Below are positions 3,067 to 17,348 of a stretch of DNA of 64,000 nt, piece by piece. The notes beneath the pieces are model-generated. The model was not told the DNA's origin and made no database searches. It was given only the letters and a program-made list of their open reading frames with translations. The stretch spans positions 3,534,001 through 3,598,000 of the forward strand of contig NZ_CP063849.1 in the NCBI RefSeq assembly GCF_015277775.1, read 5' to 3'. Position 1 is the first letter of the stretch; every line of letters starts with the position of its first letter. Both the position numbers and the translations under genes were made by a program. The stretch is from Paludibaculum fermentans. Its GTDB lineage: Bacteria > Acidobacteriota > Terriglobia > Bryobacterales > Bryobacteraceae.

Positions 3067-4118
3067 CCCGCCCAGGCGGAAGTCCCGCGACATCCGCCAC
3101 GGGCTACCACACTCGAGCGCCGGGGCTTGAACCGGCCTCAACCTCTGGCGCTGGATGGCAGGAGGTTTGGAAAGGTGCCACGGTTGCCCTGCACCTCCTG
3201 TCAACAGCCAACGAGCCGGCAAGGCGCCGAGCTGTGAGCATCCTTGCCAGTTTCGCGGAGTATGCCGGCCAGTGGGAGGCTCCATTGCGAGGTGTGCTGC
3301 ACCGGCCCGATTGCTCAGGGTATGAGTCTGCGCGGATTGGCTTGGCCCTGGCTGCGCAGGGCTATTTCGAGGAAGCAGCATTTTCGGCGGGAGCCGCCGC
3401 CTTCTTCGCGGAGACAAAGCAGCTGGCACAGGAGGCCGTAACGGGCAACCCAAGGGCTTTGCGTACCTGCCTGTCGATACTAACGGAAACAGTCGACAGA
3501 AATCCCGAGGATCTCTCCGACTGGGTGGGATAGACCTGGGTTACCCCCGGCCCTTCCCATAGAACCATCACGTACATGGATTCGTGACGCCCAGCCCCCC
3601 GCTGCGTCATCCCCGCGCCGGGCCGCGAAATCAAAGAAAGCCCCAGTTGCCGGACGTATCCGGTAAGGCGCCCTCTGGTCAACCACCCCGAGGCACGTAG
3701 CCCCTCGCCGGCCGGACATTCATCGGGGTCTTCCATTGCCGTGCGGGCCGCCAAAGCGGAGGAAGCCGCCCCCACATCCCCAGTCCCGGAGCGCAGCGAC
3801 GGGCTACGCGGGCGTCTTCAACGGAATGGTCCCCACCGCGTTGCGAACCGCGACTGGCAAGGCTCGGGCCTCGGCCAGTCGAGCATCTTCGATGGAGCCC
3901 AGCATGGCCCCACAGGCCGCCAAAGCCGAGAAAGCCGCAAATTGAGCCGCGGCCCGTGAGTGAGCGGATAGACACCGCACCCCTCCATGCGGTAGCCCCT
4001 TCCTCTCCCAGCCCGTCTTCAATTGAACGGTCTCCGCAGCCCGATCCCCTAAGCCGCCACCGGGCAGCCCCAAGCGGCACCACAAGGTCTGCAGTAAGCT
4101 CATCATGGTGTTTGCAGA
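3067..4118. other. Gene-poor stretch with one doubtful ORF
   Basis: About 1 kb of GC-rich sequence. Apart from the doubtful 99-codon ORF at 3234-3533, translations on both strands are proline/arginine/serine-rich and look non-coding. No transposase remnant, tRNA or tandem repeat recognised. Confidence 0.45.
3234..3533 (+). CDS. Doubtful small hypothetical protein
   Basis: A GTG-initiated frame of 99 codons. Its composition is protein-like (alanine/leucine-rich helix around residues 37-70, acidic C-terminus ending EDLSDWVG), unlike the surrounding frames. No family recognised and no clear ribosome site. It may be the tail of a decayed gene. Low confidence. Confidence 0.25.
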   Translation: MSILASFAEYAGQWEAPLRGVLHRPDCSGYESARIGLALAAQGYFEEAAFSAGAAAFFAETKQLAQEAVTGNPRALRTCLSILTETVDRNPEDLSDWVG

Positions 4119-4514: not shown

Positions 4515-4715
4515 GCGGGGCAGATCGGCGGCTACCTCGACCACCACTCAACTCGACGAAGTCACGGCGACAGGAGTGGGTCCCCAGCAGAGACGGACAA
4601 ACGAACAGTCCGCCGACTCTCCGCCCTCCGGCCCGCCGCAGGCTGCCGCATCCACCATGCCTGGCGTCCCAGCCCGGCCATCCATCCGAGATCGCCACTC
4701 AGGCCTCACCTGATC

Positions 4716-4753
4716 ATGTATACAGGTAAACTTCACAGCTTACCTGTATACAT
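4716..4753. promoter_or_regulatory. Perfect inverted repeat, probable MarR operator
   Basis: Two 14-bp arms, ATGTATACAGGTAA and its exact reverse complement, separated by 10 bp. Each arm contains the self-complementary core TGTATACA. The right arm ends 15 bp before the GTG start of marR, so protein bound here would cover the promoter or initiation region. Autorepression through such palindromes is typical of MarR proteins; the assignment is inferred from position and symmetry. Confidence 0.75.
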
Positions 4754-4767
4754 GCGATACTGAAGCA

Positions 4768-5220
4768 GTGAGCAATCGAAAGCCCGCCAACCCCGCCCCG
4801 CTCGCTTCCACCCTGGCCTCAGACATCCGCACAGTCTTCGGCAAACTCAAGCGGCGGTTGCGTCAGCACGGACACCACCACGACCTGCCGCCATCCCAGG
4901 TCTCGGTTCTCCTTCGGCTGGAAACAGAGGGTTCGGCCACGGTATCTCATCTGGCGCGAGCGGAAGGCATGCGGCCCCAGTCCATGAGTTCAGTAGTGGC
5001 CCCATTGCAGCAGGCCGGCTGGGTCAAGGGCGCGCCCGACCCGGACGACCGGCGCCAAACACTCATGTCGCTGACGCCCAAATGCCTCAAAATGCTCCAG
5101 GAAGGCAGGGCCGCGCGGCAGGACTGGCTCACCGCCCGGGTCTCGCAGAAACTCTCTGTCCAGGAGCAGCAGCAGCTTCAGGCCGCGCTCGCCCTCCTGA
5201 CGCGTCTCGTAGAAGATTGA
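4768..5220 (+). CDS. MarR-family transcriptional regulator
   Basis: A 150-residue winged-helix regulator. The recognition region (about residues 40-95) has the family pattern: L-P-P-S-Q-V-S-V-L, S-H-L-A-R-A-E-G-M-R-P-Q-S-M-S at the recognition helix, and the wing with D-P-D-D-R-R-Q-T, the conserved DxRR salt-bridge motif. Helices for dimerisation lie at both ends. It starts at GTG directly behind a perfect 14-bp palindrome and is followed on the same strand by an isochorismatase-like hydrolase, a membrane protein and an MFS exporter. I infer that it represses this operon and is released by a small ligand that the exporter removes. Confidence 0.9.
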   Translation: MSNRKPANPAPLASTLASDIRTVFGKLKRRLRQHGHHHDLPPSQVSVLLRLETEGSATVSHLARAEGMRPQSMSSVVAPLQQAGWVKGAPDPDDRRQTLMSLTPKCLKMLQEGRAARQDWLTARVSQKLSVQEQQQLQAALALLTRLVED

Positions 5221-5275
5221 TCCTGGCGTGACCGGCTGTTTGCCCCTGTGAGTCTGTGCTCGAGGAGAACAATCC

Positions 5276-5866
5276 ATGCCGTTGACCACACTCGACCCCA
5301 ACACCGCCTTGCTCGTCATTGACCTGCAGCAAGGCCTCGTCACCGGAAACTTCATTCATCCCATAGCCGAGGTCATCAACCGGACCCGCGCCCTGATCGA
5401 CGTCTTCCGGGTGAAACACCTTCCGGTCGCCCTGGTCAATGTAGCGGGACGCCCACCGGGCCGGACGGAACAAGGCCCGCGCGTCAGTGCACCCTTTTCC
5501 GCCGGCTGGACAGACCTTCTGCCACAGCTCGATCAGCAGCCGGACGACCTCCTCGTCACGAAGAGGAGCTGGGGCGCATTCGCCACAACGGATCTGGAAC
5601 GCCGGCTCAAGGCACAAGGCGTCACCCAGGTAGTTGTGACGGGGATAGTAACCTCCGGCGGCGTGGAGGCGACCGCACGCCAGGCCTACGAGCAGGGGTT
5701 CCACGTCACCCTGGCACTCGACGCCATCACCGATATCCGCAAGGAAGCGCACGAGTACAGCATCAGCAACGTCTTCCCTCGCCTCGGCGAGACAGGCTCT
5801 TCACAGGAAATCATCTCGCTGCTGGAAGGCCGGGAAGGACCAACCGGCCTGAAAGAGCCGGCTTGA
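5276..5866 (+). CDS. Isochorismatase-like hydrolase lacking the catalytic cysteine
   Basis: A 196-residue alpha/beta protein of the isochorismatase/cysteine-hydrolase superfamily. The family Asp (Asp16 in VIDLQQ) and Lys (Lys96 in TKRSWGAF) are present. At the nucleophile position, in the usual T-x-x-C-V-x-x-T-A-R motif, the sequence reads TSGGVEATAR, so the Cys is replaced by Gly129. Cys-less relatives such as PhzD hydrolyse vinyl ethers by acid catalysis, whereas amidase members need the Cys. Nicotinamidase-type chemistry is therefore unlikely. Second gene of the marR operon, 55 bases after marR, with a GAGGAG ribosome site. Substrate unknown. Confidence 0.85.
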   Translation: MPLTTLDPNTALLVIDLQQGLVTGNFIHPIAEVINRTRALIDVFRVKHLPVALVNVAGRPPGRTEQGPRVSAPFSAGWTDLLPQLDQQPDDLLVTKRSWGAFATTDLERRLKAQGVTQVVVTGIVTSGGVEATARQAYEQGFHVTLALDAITDIRKEAHEYSISNVFPRLGETGSSQEIISLLEGREGPTGLKEPA

Positions 5867-5885
5867 AAGAAAGGACCTCTGCATC

Positions 5886-6224
5886 ATGACTTGGCTCTAC
5901 CTGGTGTCCTACTTCATCGGCGGCCTCTTTGCGGCCAACGCGATCCCCCACCTCGTCTCCGGCACGCTGGGACGCTCCTTTCAGACCCCCTTTGCCAAAC
6001 CGTCCGGCCAGGGACTCTCCTCTTCCACAATCAACGTGGTTTGGGGATTCGCTAACGCCGCGGTCAGCTACCTGCTCCTCCTGCACGTCGGCTCGTTCCA
6101 ACCACGGGCGGCCAGCCACATCCTGGCGTTCTCACTGGGCGCGCTACTCGTCAGTATCTTCTCCGCCCGTCACTTCGGCCAGTTCCATGGAGGCAACACG
6201 CCGCCGCCCATAGGACGGACCTAG
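5886..6224 (+). CDS. Small integral membrane protein in MarR operon
   Basis: 112 residues with three or four hydrophobic segments (about 3-20, 48-68, 78-95). Conserved-looking stretch: A-N-A-I-P-H-L-V-S-G-T-L-G-R-x-F-Q-T-P-F-A. Lies 19 bases after the hydrolase gene behind AAAGGA. Its stop codon overlaps the GTG of the MFS gene by one base (TAGTG), so translation is probably coupled. No function can be assigned; a role beside the exporter is inferred from context. Confidence 0.75.
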   Translation: MTWLYLVSYFIGGLFAANAIPHLVSGTLGRSFQTPFAKPSGQGLSSSTINVVWGFANAAVSYLLLLHVGSFQPRAASHILAFSLGALLVSIFSARHFGQFHGGNTPPPIGRT

Positions 6225-7453
6225 TGTCCGGTACCTTCCGCTCCCTGCGCAGCCGCAACTTCCGCCTCTGGATGGCCGGCAGCCTCGTCTCCAACATCGG
6301 CACCTGGATCCAGCGCGTCGCCCAGGACTGGCTGGTGCTGACGCAACTCACCCATCGGGACGCCACCGCGCTGGGCATTGTGATGGGCCTGCAGTTCGCG
6401 CCGCAGCTTCTGTTCCTGCCCTGGACGGGATCGGCCGCGGACCGCCTCAACCAGCGCAAACTCCTGATGCTCACCCAGGCCACCATGGGCCTGCTCGCGC
6501 TCATCCTGGGCGTGCTCACCATCACCGGAGTCGTCCAGCTCTGGCACGTATATGTCTTCGCCTTCCTGTCCGGCTCCGGCGCCGCGCTCGATGCGCCGGT
6601 TCGGCAGACCTTCGTGGCGGAGATGGTCGGCGACGAAGACCTCTCCAATGCCGTGGCCTTGAACTCAACCTCCTTCAATGCGGCACGGATGTTTGGCCCC
6701 GCCGTGGCCGGCCTGCTGATCGCCCAGGTGGGCATCGGCTGGGCTTTTCTTCTGAATGGCCTCTCGTTCGGAGCGGTGCTGCTCTCGATGTCGTTCTTCC
6801 GTCTCTCGGAACTGCGGGAAAGACCAAGGGCGCATCCCACCACCTCCGGATTCCTGGAGGGATTTCGCTGCGTGTGGAGAACACCCGACCTCCGCGCGAT
6901 TCTGGTCATGCTGTTCCTGATCGGCACCTTCGGGCTGAACTTTCCCATCTACATCTCAACCATGGCCGTGAATGTCTTCCACTCCGGAGCCGGTGCGTTC
7001 GGCCTGCTCTCCTCCATCATGGCCGTGGGCTCGCTCTCGGGAGCCTTGTTTGCTGCCGGCCGCAGGAAGCCAAACCTCGCCTCCCTCGCCACCGGAGCCG
7101 GCATCTTCGGACTGGGCTGCACCCTGGCCGCCCTCGCCCCGGGCTACTGGTGGTTCGCCGCGGCGCTCGCCATCACAGGAGCGGCGGCCCTTACCCTGAC
7201 CAACGGCACCAACAGCATCATGCAGCTCTCCGCGGAACCCTCCATGCGAGGCAGGGTGATGGCCCTCCGGGTCGCCGTGGCCTTGGGTGGAACCACCCTC
7301 GGAGCGCCCATCGCCGGCTGGGTAGCCAACCACTTCGGCCCGCGTTGGTCCCTCGGCATCGGCGCGGCAGCGGGCTTCGCCGCCGCCCTCGTCGCAGTCA
7401 CTGTTCTGTGCGGTCGAAAAGCACCACCACACGTGGAGCCGCCCGGCCTGTAA
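6224..7453 (+). CDS. MFS transporter, EntS/MFS_3-like exporter
   Basis: 409 residues with about twelve membrane segments. The N-terminus (R-S-x-N-F-R-L-W, then S-N-I-G-T-W-I-Q-R-V-A-Q-D-W-L-V-L) is typical of the MFS_3 group, which includes the enterobactin exporter EntS and drug-efflux relatives. The cytoplasmic loop after TM2 carries the A-D-R-x-x-x-R-x-L motif, and D-A-P-V-R-Q-T-F lies after TM4. Starts at GTG overlapping the previous stop. It is the last gene of a four-gene MarR-controlled unit, so regulated efflux of a small organic compound is likely. The compound is unknown. Confidence 0.88.
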   Translation: MSGTFRSLRSRNFRLWMAGSLVSNIGTWIQRVAQDWLVLTQLTHRDATALGIVMGLQFAPQLLFLPWTGSAADRLNQRKLLMLTQATMGLLALILGVLTITGVVQLWHVYVFAFLSGSGAALDAPVRQTFVAEMVGDEDLSNAVALNSTSFNAARMFGPAVAGLLIAQVGIGWAFLLNGLSFGAVLLSMSFFRLSELRERPRAHPTTSGFLEGFRCVWRTPDLRAILVMLFLIGTFGLNFPIYISTMAVNVFHSGAGAFGLLSSIMAVGSLSGALFAAGRRKPNLASLATGAGIFGLGCTLAALAPGYWWFAAALAITGAAALTLTNGTNSIMQLSAEPSMRGRVMALRVAVALGGTTLGAPIAGWVANHFGPRWSLGIGAAAGFAAALVAVTVLCGRKAPPHVEPPGL

Positions 7454-7761: not shown

Positions 7762-8406
7762 ATGGTGACCGATCCTACTGCAATCGAGCTTGGGACGTGG
7801 TTGAATAGCCTGCGTCGCCATGACCCCTTCCTTCGTCAGTTCGGCGCCGCAATTCATCGATACGAGATGAATCCTTGCATACAGAGCGATGAGCTTGAGC
7901 TGGCGGAGGCGGTACTAGGAACCAGAATTCCCGAAGACTATCGTCAGTTCTTGTTGACCTGCGGAAATGGTGGGGCGGGACCCGGCTACGGGATCCTTTC
8001 ACTCGCAGCATCAATCCGTGAGTTCGGCAACGACCCGCCAAGTTCGGCGGGCATAGTCTTCGAGCCAACTCTCTCTGCGGAGTTAAAACAAGTGAACCGT
8101 GCCTATCCTGATAATGGCATTCTCCCAATTGCAAATGTGGGATGTGGACACATGTGGGTTCTGATCACCAGCGGACCAGAACGTGGTTCGATTTGGGGCT
8201 ACGAAGCTGGAGGAGACTACGAACCTGAGAGCGCCAGTCACCCCGACTACTCGCTCGCAGTGACGGTGGAAGACCGGCTTCGCGCCAATGATCGATTGCT
8301 CGACACCTTGCTCGCGGACCCGGCTACGCGCCTCACATTCTGGAAATGGTATCAGGCATGGGTCCATCGCACCCTCTTGCAAGAGCCTCCACCACGGACC
8401 CGCTGA
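7762..8406 (+). CDS. SMI1/KNR4 (SUKH) family protein
   Basis: 214-residue soluble protein with the SUKH pattern. It has E-L-x-x-A-E-x-x-L-G-x-x-I-P-E-D-Y-R-Q-F-L-L-x-x-G-N-G-G near residues 45-75 and G-P-G-Y-G-I-L-S-L just after. A G-C-G-H-M-W-V-L-I core and a W-G-Y strand follow. SUKH proteins are often immunity proteins for contact-dependent or polymorphic toxins, but also have other roles. No intact toxin gene is adjacent, so it may be an orphan immunity gene. Less GC-rich than the flanking core genes, which suggests transfer. Confidence 0.8.
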   Translation: MVTDPTAIELGTWLNSLRRHDPFLRQFGAAIHRYEMNPCIQSDELELAEAVLGTRIPEDYRQFLLTCGNGGAGPGYGILSLAASIREFGNDPPSSAGIVFEPTLSAELKQVNRAYPDNGILPIANVGCGHMWVLITSGPERGSIWGYEAGGDYEPESASHPDYSLAVTVEDRLRANDRLLDTLLADPATRLTFWKWYQAWVHRTLLQEPPPRTR

Positions 8407-14282: not shown

Positions 14283-14322
14283 TGTTGCGCGCGCGATTTC
14301 TTGGACAGTAAATTCACCATAA

Positions 14323-15231
14323 TCATGCGGCATGCTGGAGCGCAAGGAGGCGCTCGCGAGCCTGTCGCGGAGACTGAAAGCTGAGACGTTCGATCAGCCA
14401 CTCGCGGTTGTAGCGATCGCGGAACTCGCGCAGTGCGGCCTGCAATTCTTCGAGGTCCTGGAAGTGCCGCACCCAGAGAAGCTGCTCTTTGAGAGTGCGG
14501 AAGAAACGCTCAATGCAGCCATTGCATTCGGGTTCACGGACAAAGGCAGGCGAGGAATCCATGCCGAGAAAGCGGAGCTCGTTTTGAAAGTGGTCGCTCA
14601 TGTATTGCGAGCCGTGGTCGTGGCGGATCTGCAAGCCGGCGGCGGCTTTGGGGCCGAAGGCGCCGAAGTGCTCACGCACGCCCTGTCGCAATGGTTCCAG
14701 TGCCTCAAAGCGGGTGGCGCGCTTGACGGCGTGAATGCCCACGCACTCGGCGGTGCAGTGGTCGATGGCGGCGAAGACAGTGACCTGGCCATCGGCGAGG
14801 GTAACGGTAGCGGTGGCATCGGTGCCCCACATCTGGTTGGGCTGGCTGGTCACGATGGAACCGTCATGCAACTTCTCCTCCACCGGCACGAGCTGCCGTT
14901 GCGGCGCCAGCAGTTCGTTCTCTCGCGTCAGGCGCAGGACGCGTGGCTTGGAGGTGCGGACCGCTTGGGCTCGCAGTCTCGCCCAGATCTTGCGATGCCC
15001 CTCGCCATGGAAGGGCGAAGCCGCCAGGACGGCGCGGATCTGCTCCAACAACTCGGCATCTGTGTACTTCGTCTTCGGACCGCGCCGCTGCAAAGCCGCG
15101 GGTTGGCGTGCTCTCTGCTGCCTGGCATAGAACGTCGAGCGCGGCTGGCCCCACACGGTCAGAACACGAGCCCGCCCGTACTTGCGGCCAGTGGAGGGCG
15201 ACTGGGCTTGGCTCATCGCTTCGACCTCCAC
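14323..15231 (-). CDS. IS3-family transposase OrfB (DDE integrase domain)
   Basis: 302 residues. The N-terminal helical region has H-G-E-G-H-R-K-I-W-A-R-L-R, the IS3 HTH_21-type block. The rve integrase core has catalytic Asp138 (MWGTDATA), Asp205 (IRHDHGSQY) and Glu241 (CNGCIERFFRTLK), a DD(35)E spacing. The C-terminus has Y-N-R-E-W-L-I-E-R-L-x-F-Q-S-P. It overlaps orfA by 19 bp and has its own ATG, so it may be made separately or by frameshifting. Complete and apparently functional. Confidence 0.92.
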   Translation of the reverse strand: MEVEAMSQAQSPSTGRKYGRARVLTVWGQPRSTFYARQQRARQPAALQRRGPKTKYTDAELLEQIRAVLAASPFHGEGHRKIWARLRAQAVRTSKPRVLRLTRENELLAPQRQLVPVEEKLHDGSIVTSQPNQMWGTDATATVTLADGQVTVFAAIDHCTAECVGIHAVKRATRFEALEPLRQGVREHFGAFGPKAAAGLQIRHDHGSQYMSDHFQNELRFLGMDSSPAFVREPECNGCIERFFRTLKEQLLWVRHFQDLEELQAALREFRDRYNREWLIERLSFQSPRQARERLLALQHAA

Positions 15232-15602
15232 TTCAGAGAAGGGTTGGCGTTCTCCAGTTGCTGGATGCGCTCGCGTTGCAGTTCGACGGTCATGGCGAGT
15301 TCGGCGATGACGGACTTCATGCGCCGGCCCTGCTCATCGACCAGATCGTCTTCGCGGATCTTCAGGCCAGCCTCGCCGCTGGCGAGAAACGCGTCCCGCC
15401 AATCGGACAGCGTGGCGGCGGTGACCGCGTATTTGCGGCTCAAGCTCTCCAGATCCTCGCCTCGGAGGAACTCAAGAACGACCGCCATCTTGCGCTTGGC
15501 CGACCAGCGGCCCTTGCCTCGGCGGCCGGTCCCGGGGGCCTCGGAGGTCGCCCTTCGGGCTCCCTCCGAGGCCCCCGGGACCGATTGCTTGTTGCTGGAC
15601 AT
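15213..15602 (-). CDS. IS3-family transposase OrfA (helix-turn-helix)
   Basis: 129 residues. After a low-complexity N-terminus, the HTH_Tnp domain reads GRWSAKRKMAVVLEFLRGED then L-E-S-L-S-R-K-Y-A-V-T-A-A-T-L-S-D-W-R-D-A-F-L, with a coiled-coil (about 95-120: V-I-A-E-L-A-M-T-V-E-L-Q-R-E-R-I-Q-Q-L-E) for multimerisation. It recognises the element ends. A long perfect inverted stretch within codons 5-30 (GCCCCCGGGACCG-type sequence near 15530-15585) could fold and affect expression. Confidence 0.9.
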   Translation of the reverse strand: MSSNKQSVPGASEGARRATSEAPGTGRRGKGRWSAKRKMAVVLEFLRGEDLESLSRKYAVTAATLSDWRDAFLASGEAGLKIREDDLVDEQGRRMKSVIAELAMTVELQRERIQQLENANPSLKWRSKR

Positions 15603-15653
15603 GCTGACTCTCCTTTCTTCAAATCAGTGTCCAAGAAAATCGCGGGGCGGGAG

Positions 15654-15668
15654 ACGAACTGCTATTGG
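15654..15668 (+). repeat. 15-bp direct repeat flanking IS (right copy)
   Basis: Exact copy of 14268-14282. See the left copy. Confidence 0.85.
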
Positions 15669-16124: not shown

Positions 16125-16619
16125 AATGAGGATGTCCAGATGCTGTTCCCGTGAGAGGGACTGAGCTGCCGTAGATTCGATTCTGGCGTATCACCTGGGC
16201 GTAAACGCCCTTGACGCAGGGCGCTCGACCGAAGCACGTCCGGCCCGTTCAATCGTCTGGCCGATTCTCAGAACGGCGGTCGGGCGATCTGGAAGTTGCA
16301 CGCCATACGTCCGGGCTCATCCCGCTCCGGCCCAATTCTCTGCCGCCCGCAGCATGAACCTTTCCTCATTCACCGCCGAATCGGACTTATTTCTCTTTTC
16401 CTTGCACCCACTTGGCGCAAACAATCCCAGATCCCGCCTCCGCGTCGTGCATCATGGAACCGGCGGAGCAAGCGATCCACCCGCATGCGCCGCTGGATCT
16501 TTGAATCGAAAACCGCCGCCCCCCTGCGGCCGCCCTCATCGGCGACCGCCCCAGGTTGGGAGACCAACGCCAACAAACAAGACAATAAGGATAGCCGCCG
16601 CCCGCAATCCCTCATTCTT
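16125..16619. other. Intergenic stretch leading into repeat array
   Basis: About 500 bases with no supported gene. It becomes C- and A-rich on the plus strand before the array. Confidence 0.45.
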
Positions 16620-17248
16620 GAGCGATCAAACCCATCTCTTCGCCCTCAGGCGAAAGTCCAGTCAACTCTCTTTATGAGTGATCAAACCCACTTCTTCGCC
16701 CAAAGGCGAAAGTACCCATTTCGCTCTCCGTGAGCGATCAAACCCATTTCTTCGCCCCAAGGCGAAAGTCTTCTGCACTGCCGCATCAACCAACGCAGCC
16801 GCCCCCAGCATTCCCCCCGGCATTGCCGGGGGCCCATCCCAACAACAACGACACTCCCCCATCCCCCAACCAATCCCAAAGGACTTGAGCGATCAAACCC
16901 ATATCTTCCCCCCAAGGCGAAAGTCTTCTCCACCGCCGCATCAACCAACGCAGCCTCCCCCAGCATTCCCCCCCGGCATTGCCGGGGGCCCATCCCAACA
17001 TCAACGACACCCGCCCCATCCACCGACCAATCCCAAGGGATCTGAGCGATCAAACCCATCTCTTCGCTCCAAGGCGAAAGTCCCCTCCACCGCCGCAACA
17101 GCCCCCACCGCCCCCCCCAACATTCCCCCCGGCATTGCCGGGGGCCCATCCCAACATCAACGACGCCCGCTCCATCCACCACCCAACCCCAACCAATCCA
17201 AAGGGATCTGAGCGATCAAACCCATCTCTTCGCCCCCAGGCGAAAGTC
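16620..17248. repeat. Tandem array of six 39-bp hairpin motifs, three within ~155-166-bp units
   Basis: Six copies of a 39-bp motif beginning GAGCGATCAAACCCATCTCT and ending GGCGAAAGTC start at 16620, 16676, 16732, 16887, 17044 and 17210. Each contains TTCGCC-NNNN-GGCGAA, a six-pair hairpin with a four-base loop. Copy 5 keeps it with a wobble pair; copy 4 (TTCCCC) breaks one pair. Intervals are 56, 56, 155, 157 and 166 bp. After copies 3, 4 and 5 there is a second conserved hairpin, CCCCCGGC-ATT-GCCGGGGG, at 16814-16832, 16970-16988 and 17126-17144. Conserved CCCATCCCAACAxCAACGAC follows. No interval is a multiple of three, so the long open frames across it on both strands are by-products. 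It resembles no repeat class I can name. Confidence 0.85.
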
Positions 17249-17348
17249 TTCTCCACCGCCGCAACAGCCCCCACCGCCCCCCTTGACTCCGGCCACCCAC
17301 CGGCGTAACCCATTACCAGCCATCTATCCTTAAATGAAAGGCTGCGCC

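Follow-up and report, generated by a model that had tools for sequence, protein, structure and literature searches.

A cassette of four genes behind a long inverted repeat in Paludibaculum fermentans (Acidobacteriota) encodes a MarR-family repressor, an isochorismatase-fold hydrolase, a small membrane protein, and an MFS exporter. It lies within a stretch of 64,000 nt of NZ_CP063849.1, hereafter the window, whose positions serve as coordinates throughout. We consider it probable that these genes form a ligand-inducible operon, in which an autorepressing MarR switch made from a leaderless mRNA would control detoxification by the hydrolase and the exporter. According to comparisons of orthologous sequences, the repeat is real and conserved, also in relatives from another phylum, and is a putative operator, and the four-gene unit is a conserved cassette and not a chance neighborhood.

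The inverted repeat spans 40 bp. Its two 18-nt arms are complementary at 17 of 18 positions (94%) and are separated by 4 nt; the outer 15 bp of the arms (CATGTATACAGGTAA and TTACCTGTATACATG) pair perfectly, and 13 nt lie between the repeat and the GTG start codon of marR (4768). A preliminary description of this DNA had reported a perfect 14-bp repeat 15 bp before marR; the repeat itself is real, but the perfect pairing extends over 15 bp and the gap measures 13 nt. In the host genome of 9.53 Mb the exact paired motif occurs only once. The palindrome that had been noted inside each arm is present in the window, but it is not a general feature: only the window copy has a TGTATACA-like palindrome in each of its arms (GTATAC in both, 1 of 42 aligned rows). 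The arm-internal palindrome thus appears incidental, and the double palindrome was rejected as a functional element.

Orthologous loci were collected by scanning genome contigs for the hydrolase, which yielded 48 loci. All except L073, where the hydrolase start is missing, were examined for a 21-bp operator core in the 800 bp upstream of the hydrolase, with the reversed sequence as control. The operator is present at 41 of these 47 loci, three times weakly, so that the same palindrome indeed precedes most orthologous operons, as the preliminary description had proposed to check. Core scores of the 41 loci range from 13 to 19 matches versus 10–13 in reversed sequence; the weak sites (L036, L050, and L066; 13/21 versus 11–12 in the reversed controls) were kept for their position, and L059 was kept with a site 162 nt farther upstream. 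The loci dropped were L044, whose contig starts 58 bases before the hydrolase, L054, L068, L070, and L074, in which tblastn found no marR (L074 scored 15 versus 12 reversed), and L055, which has marR and whose best core (13; reversed control 12) lies at another place. Together with the window, the 41 loci form a table of 42 rows. These share near-invariant AG, CT, AG, and CT dinucleotides at fixed spacing around a center that mostly reads TTTACA, and the core may be read as two side-by-side 13-bp dyads, ACAG-N5-CTTT and ACAG-N5-CTGT. In the outer arms, acidobacterial rows read ACAG/CTGT or something close to it, and many proteobacterial rows read GAAG/CTTC. Arm complementarity amounts to 489 of 756 cells at the true center and to at most 219 at eight slid centers. 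Co-evolution of operator and regulator was considered as well: residue 74 of MarR, which presumably lies in the recognition helix, is Gly at each of the 10 loci whose outer arm is of the A..T type and Ser in 19 of the 26 with the C..G type. As supported branches provide only one independent pair, this reading was not adopted.

A single promoter-like site was predicted between positions 4000 and 8500, TTCACA-18-GATACT at 4732–4761, and its −35 box forms the center of the operator repeat. The preliminary description had missed both this −35 box inside the operator and the probable leaderless nature of the marR mRNA. With the same offset applied to all rows, the −10 place ends 6 nt before the start codon in all 20 acidobacterial rows and 5–7 nt before it in 18 of the 22 rows from proteobacteria. 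The start codons had been assigned from homology and not from this spacing; from core to start codon, 38 of the 42 rows agree to within 1 nt. Among the four exceptions, L060 and L064 also offer an in-frame ATG at exactly 6. Furthermore, at the annotated plasmid loci L164 and L167, which lie outside the operator profile described below, the start annotated for marR is exactly the expected base. Shine-Dalgarno matches of at least 4 precede marR in 4 of 42 cases, the hydrolase in 38 of 41, the membrane protein in 31 of 39, and MFS in 6 of 33, where the MFS start of the window overlaps the preceding stop codon. According to the available part of PMC3160421, a −10-like signal lies about 12 bp before the start codon in leaderless bacterial genes; the hexamer of the window, GATACT and not TANNNT, begins 12 bp 5′ of the marR start, which lacks a Shine-Dalgarno sequence. 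On account of the fixed spacing, the lacking Shine-Dalgarno sequence, and the −10 placement given in that part of PMC3160421, a leaderless marR mRNA is probable and is the best reading. Positions of all elements are listed in Table 1.

Table 1. Genes and control elements of the cassette (window positions).
Feature	Position	Strand	Remarks
Conserved operator core ACAG-N5-CTTTACAG-N5-CTGT; in the window ACAGGTAAACTTCACAGCTTACCTGT	4722..4747	.	7 invariant columns in 37 aligned sequences
Putative MarR operator, inverted repeat	4715..4754	.	Arms 4715-4732 / 4737-4754; in 41/47 orthologous loci
-35 hexamer TTCACA (TTTACA in many orthologues), operator center	4732..4737	+	Promoter prediction and row alignment
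-10 hexamer GATACT	4756..4761	+	18-bp spacer; 6 nt 5′ of start codon; promoter prediction and row alignment
marR	4768..5220	+	GTG start; MarR-family repressor, nearest Rv0880 / PDB 4YIF; probably first nt of a leaderless mRNA
Isochorismatase-fold hydrolase, YecD type	5276..5866	+	Asp16, Lys96; Gly129 at catalytic-Cys place
112-aa membrane protein	5886..6224	+	Three predicted helices; no Pfam match (E 10), no NCBIfam match (E 0.001)
MFS_3-type exporter (drug/siderophore exporter group)	6224..7453	+	Pfam/NCBIfam

The operator is closely tied to marR. A sequence-only profile was built from 37 sites of the 42 rows, omitting L043, L050, L066, L071, and L072 as near copies, weak, or off register. 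In the host genome it found this site alone (150 of 362 candidates scored), and a wider regulon in the host was therefore rejected; with one site in its own genome the operator probably acts as a local switch. In 396 genomes of the phylum, with 15 candidates scored per genome, the profile matched at E ≤ 0.01 in 19. In all of the ten best genomes (E ≤ 1.3e-5) the site lies directly before a marR orthologue; one of these is the window genome itself (G000), three (G446, G355, and G163) are represented by contigs used for the profile, and six by contigs outside it. Weak profile matches in G121 and G147 are also located 5′ of a marR. Conversely, 12 of the 396 genomes contain a marR orthologue at E ≤ 1e-25, namely the ten, G147, and G261. 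Among 26 chosen loci outside the profile rows, some of them close relatives of rows (the membrane-protein loci L153–L159, L161, and L163 were left out), the profile matched 9 of the 11 that have marR and none of the 15 that lack it. At the remote marR loci of G022 and G261 the operator was found at weaker scores.

These results also bear on the idea that the palindrome is no operator at all and either forms a terminator or attenuator hairpin in RNA or marks the end of a mobile element. A long inverted repeat adjoining a patchily distributed cassette would suit such an origin, yet no T-run occurs 3′ of the repeat and no terminator is predicted there. As the repeat lies upstream of the −10 hexamer, it would not be transcribed from that promoter. 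Moreover, the conserved core has a fixed non-pairing center that fits protein binding plus a −35 box, and among the 26 loci outside the profile the repeat was found only beside marR. We regard this explanation as highly improbable.

The regulator itself is a member of the MarR family by its winged-helix domain (PF01047, 46.3 bits versus a cut-off of 24.6). Its best named family is Rv0880 (NF052438), whose structure 4YIF it matches in the PDB with an E value of 1.2e-17; at 86.2 bits it falls far below the cut-off of 220 and thus is not an equivalog of this family.

In the window, the four genes share one strand; 55 bp separate marR from the hydrolase and 19 bp the hydrolase from the membrane protein, whose gene overlaps that for MFS in a TAGTG stop-start; sequence and open reading frames thus agree with the gene order and tight spacing originally described. 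Most of the 48 hydrolase loci come from Acidobacteriota and Alphaproteobacteria; a Solimonas (Gammaproteobacteria) and a Verrucomicrobiales bin contribute one each. At 31 of them marR, hydrolase, membrane protein, and MFS follow each other in this order (in L072 with the hydrolase in two pieces), and this recurrence speaks for a conserved cassette. A full MFS is missing from L047, L052, L053, L058, L061, and L071 though the locus continues; MFS fragments remain at L071 and at the plasmid loci L164 and L166, and some other loci end too early to judge their gene content. At L055, L066, G147, L165, and L167, which have marR, hydrolase, and MFS, the membrane protein was not found. G239 and G121 possess marR and the membrane protein without the hydrolase. 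Plasmid records extend the distribution to betaproteobacteria and further rhizobia, 15 with the membrane protein and 12 with the hydrolase (E ≤ 1e-40).

Across genomes, the distribution of the cassette is patchy. None of eight other genomes of the window's genus contains a close hydrolase (best partial match 43%), and among the family genomes searched only G022 has one, at 49%; in a quick tree the window falls inside a group of 20 acidobacterial rows (SH-aLRT 100). In G396, G215, G223, G154, G292, and G388, hydrolase, membrane protein, and MFS sequence are present in order without marR (flanks of about 1.5 kb), with only a short MFS piece matched in G292. Four of these six genomes have a divergent TetR-like frame, assigned to TetR by Pfam in both cases tested. 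The same effector genes beside TetR suggest that the effector set was kept while the regulator was exchanged. The TetR versions have a short palindrome of their own, TGAGG-N4-CCTCA, between regulator and hydrolase (L147, L149, and L152; 3/3). In L027, a fragment of a second MFS copy upstream of marR (1602–1871) is perhaps a trace of recombination. One Variovorax plasmid locus follows the meta-cleavage genes dmpE/G/H; these were rejected as a clue to the substrate, as they are not repeated at three other annotated cassette loci.

The hydrolase belongs to the isochorismatase-fold superfamily (PF00857 Isochorismatase, 129.1 bits versus a cut-off of 27). Its best NCBIfam model is YecD (PRK11440), of which it is not an equivalog (120.8 bits versus a cut-off of 195), and the closest solved structures are 3TXY and YecD itself (1J2R), whereas solved isochorismatases are more remote. 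With these YecD-type proteins it has in common the Asp, the Lys, a Gly for Cys, and a W-G-A-F motif; it differs from them by its score below the cut-off and its place within a MarR/MFS cassette. In the alignment of 49 rows (the window and 48 loci), each of Asp16, Lys96, and Gly129 is present in 48 and faces a gap in one. Since Gly129 replaces the catalytic Cys of the Asp-Lys-Cys triad, the protein does not qualify as a cysteine hydrolase of this superfamily, and its initial characterization as Cys-less applies to the aligned orthologs as well. The exporter matches PF05977 MFS_3 with 165 bits over residues 3–393 of 409, which places it in MFS_3; MFS_1 is matched, too. This near full-length MFS_3 match is shared with the drug and siderophore exporters EntS, Tap, and Mef, but for none of the NCBIfam models listed does the protein reach the cut-off.

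Could the genes instead constitute a chorismate or siderophore operon, in which a true isochorismatase makes 2,3-dihydro-2,3-dihydroxybenzoate and an EntS-like protein exports the product? The Isochorismatase match and a below-cutoff EntS match of MFS agree with this, as does the Gly at the Cys place, which the available part of PMC12553813 reports for both EntB and YecD. However, among NCBIfam models the hydrolase fits YecD best, with no true-isochorismatase model listed for it, and the EntS model reaches only 93 bits versus a cut-off of 324. No other siderophore gene is present among the four genes or at four annotated plasmid loci (other flanks were not systematically annotated), and some loci lack MFS, two the hydrolase. 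A siderophore function thus seems quite unlikely.

The membrane protein has no relative in Pfam at E 10 or in NCBIfam at E 0.001 (PHROGs and PADLOC lay outside this search). Its model has three helices (mean pLDDT 87), and the six best PDB matches of the model are SMR proteins (Z 7.7–8.8, best Gdx-Clo). Likeness to SMR proteins is a hint only, as Foldseek gives an E value of 0.73, Z stays below the 13 advised for helical bundles, and the three modeled helices face a four-helix SMR fold. Nevertheless, this protein might be the main effector, for example as an SMR-like exporter subunit, with hydrolase and MFS as add-ons. It occurs in 31 of the 396 phylum genomes (E ≤ 1e-5) versus 12 for marR (E ≤ 1e-25), numbers that are not strictly comparable, it is the sole cassette partner of operator and marR in G239 and G121, and 20 columns are invariant among 24 sequences. 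This contrasts with its absence from the five marR-hydrolase-MFS loci named above and with the poor Foldseek and Z values of the SMR match, and we consider such a role unlikely.

For the ligand-inducible operon, we infer the following course of events. MarR dimers would bind the operator and, because the center of the operator is the −35 box, would block RNA polymerase at their own gene and the three downstream genes. A small toxic molecule entering the cell, perhaps aromatic or phenolic, would release MarR. Transcription would then begin at the GTG or within 1–2 bases of it, and the leaderless marR message would run on through hydrolase, membrane protein, and exporter. The hydrolase, needing no cysteine nucleophile, would modify the compound, and the parent compound or the product would leave the cell through the MFS protein, perhaps with the help of the small membrane protein.

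Several observations weigh against this interpretation. Firstly, covariation of the operator arms beyond column make-up is slight (489 versus a mean of 466.5, standard deviation 8.3, highest 492, in 2000 shuffles), and the excess is not separable from the relatedness of the rows. Secondly, shuffled sequences give as many promoter-like sites (mean 0.6, standard deviation 0.9), so that only the place and conservation of the predicted promoter carry weight. Compared with the TANNNT signal (available part of PMC3160421), GATACT has no initial T, the −10 place is less distinct in proteobacterial rows, L059 and L066 do not fit the constant distance, and in L165 and L166 the start annotated for marR is not the expected base. 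Thirdly, seven genomes have profile matches (E 6.7e-5 to 0.009) with no cassette gene beside them, and L055 and L066 yield no profile match despite marR. Finally, MFS is missing at several loci and the hydrolase at two, so strict coupling of hydrolysis and export is not universal, and the available part of PMC12553813 reports that wild-type Escherichia coli YecD has no gamma-lactamase activity and does not hydrolyze several amides. Judged by that part of the study, one would not expect the protein to hydrolyze amides; it may catalyze a different hydrolysis or serve in binding. The original interpretation is supported by the conserved palindrome and cassette; with MFS or the membrane protein missing at some loci and the hydrolase at two, the hydrolysis and export of one compound stays conjectural, while detoxification plus export appears plausible.

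In the vicinity of the cassette, a SUKH-family (SMI1/KNR4) protein is encoded behind it at 7762–8406; proteins of this family are often immunity proteins. Segments of 3725–3977 are repeated at many places of the same genome and in two congeners, and represent a dispersed, modular repeat family. The 1372 bases at 14283–15654 have an identical copy elsewhere in the genome (G000:C1:1560338-1561709), match one place in G007 at 90%, and contain two frames that by eye resemble an IS3-type transposase. A tandem repeat array with periods of 56 bp and 157 bp occupies 16619–17263.

An uncharacterized cassette of soil and plant-associated bacteria gains a precise predicted operator and promoter by this analysis, its MarR becomes a candidate sensor for a compound that they may encounter in nature, and an exporter is linked with an unnamed membrane-protein family. 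The fixed spacing between operator and start offers a natural test of leaderless repressor translation in Acidobacteriota and Proteobacteria. Among the papers listed for MarR and isochorismatase, no title or abstract beginning described such a cassette or operon. Tentatively, it may be viewed as a portable detoxification module, in which a possibly SMR-like 112-aa protein, MFS, and a Cys-free hydrolase are placed under a control unit of about 60 bp (two MarR dyads, −35, −10, and leaderless start at fixed spacing) that was kept from Acidobacteriota to alpha- and betaproteobacteria.

As a regulatory unit the cassette is of an ordinary, well conserved kind; what distinguishes it are the −35-centered operator with its apparent leaderless start and the unnamed membrane protein. 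Rv0880 (NF052438, 4YIF) is the best-matching named MarR family, yet a distant one given the score. In MarR-autorepressed efflux operons of the marRAB, emrRAB, mexR, or OhrR type, a palindromic operator lies at the promoter of the repressor gene itself, and an efflux protein is encoded within the operon or close to it. The cassette of P. fermentans resembles them in its MarR repressor, putative palindromic operator, and predicted efflux protein, but it differs by a long two-dyad repeat with the −35 box exactly at its center, by a repressor mRNA that appears to be leaderless, and by the isochorismatase-fold protein in its gene set.

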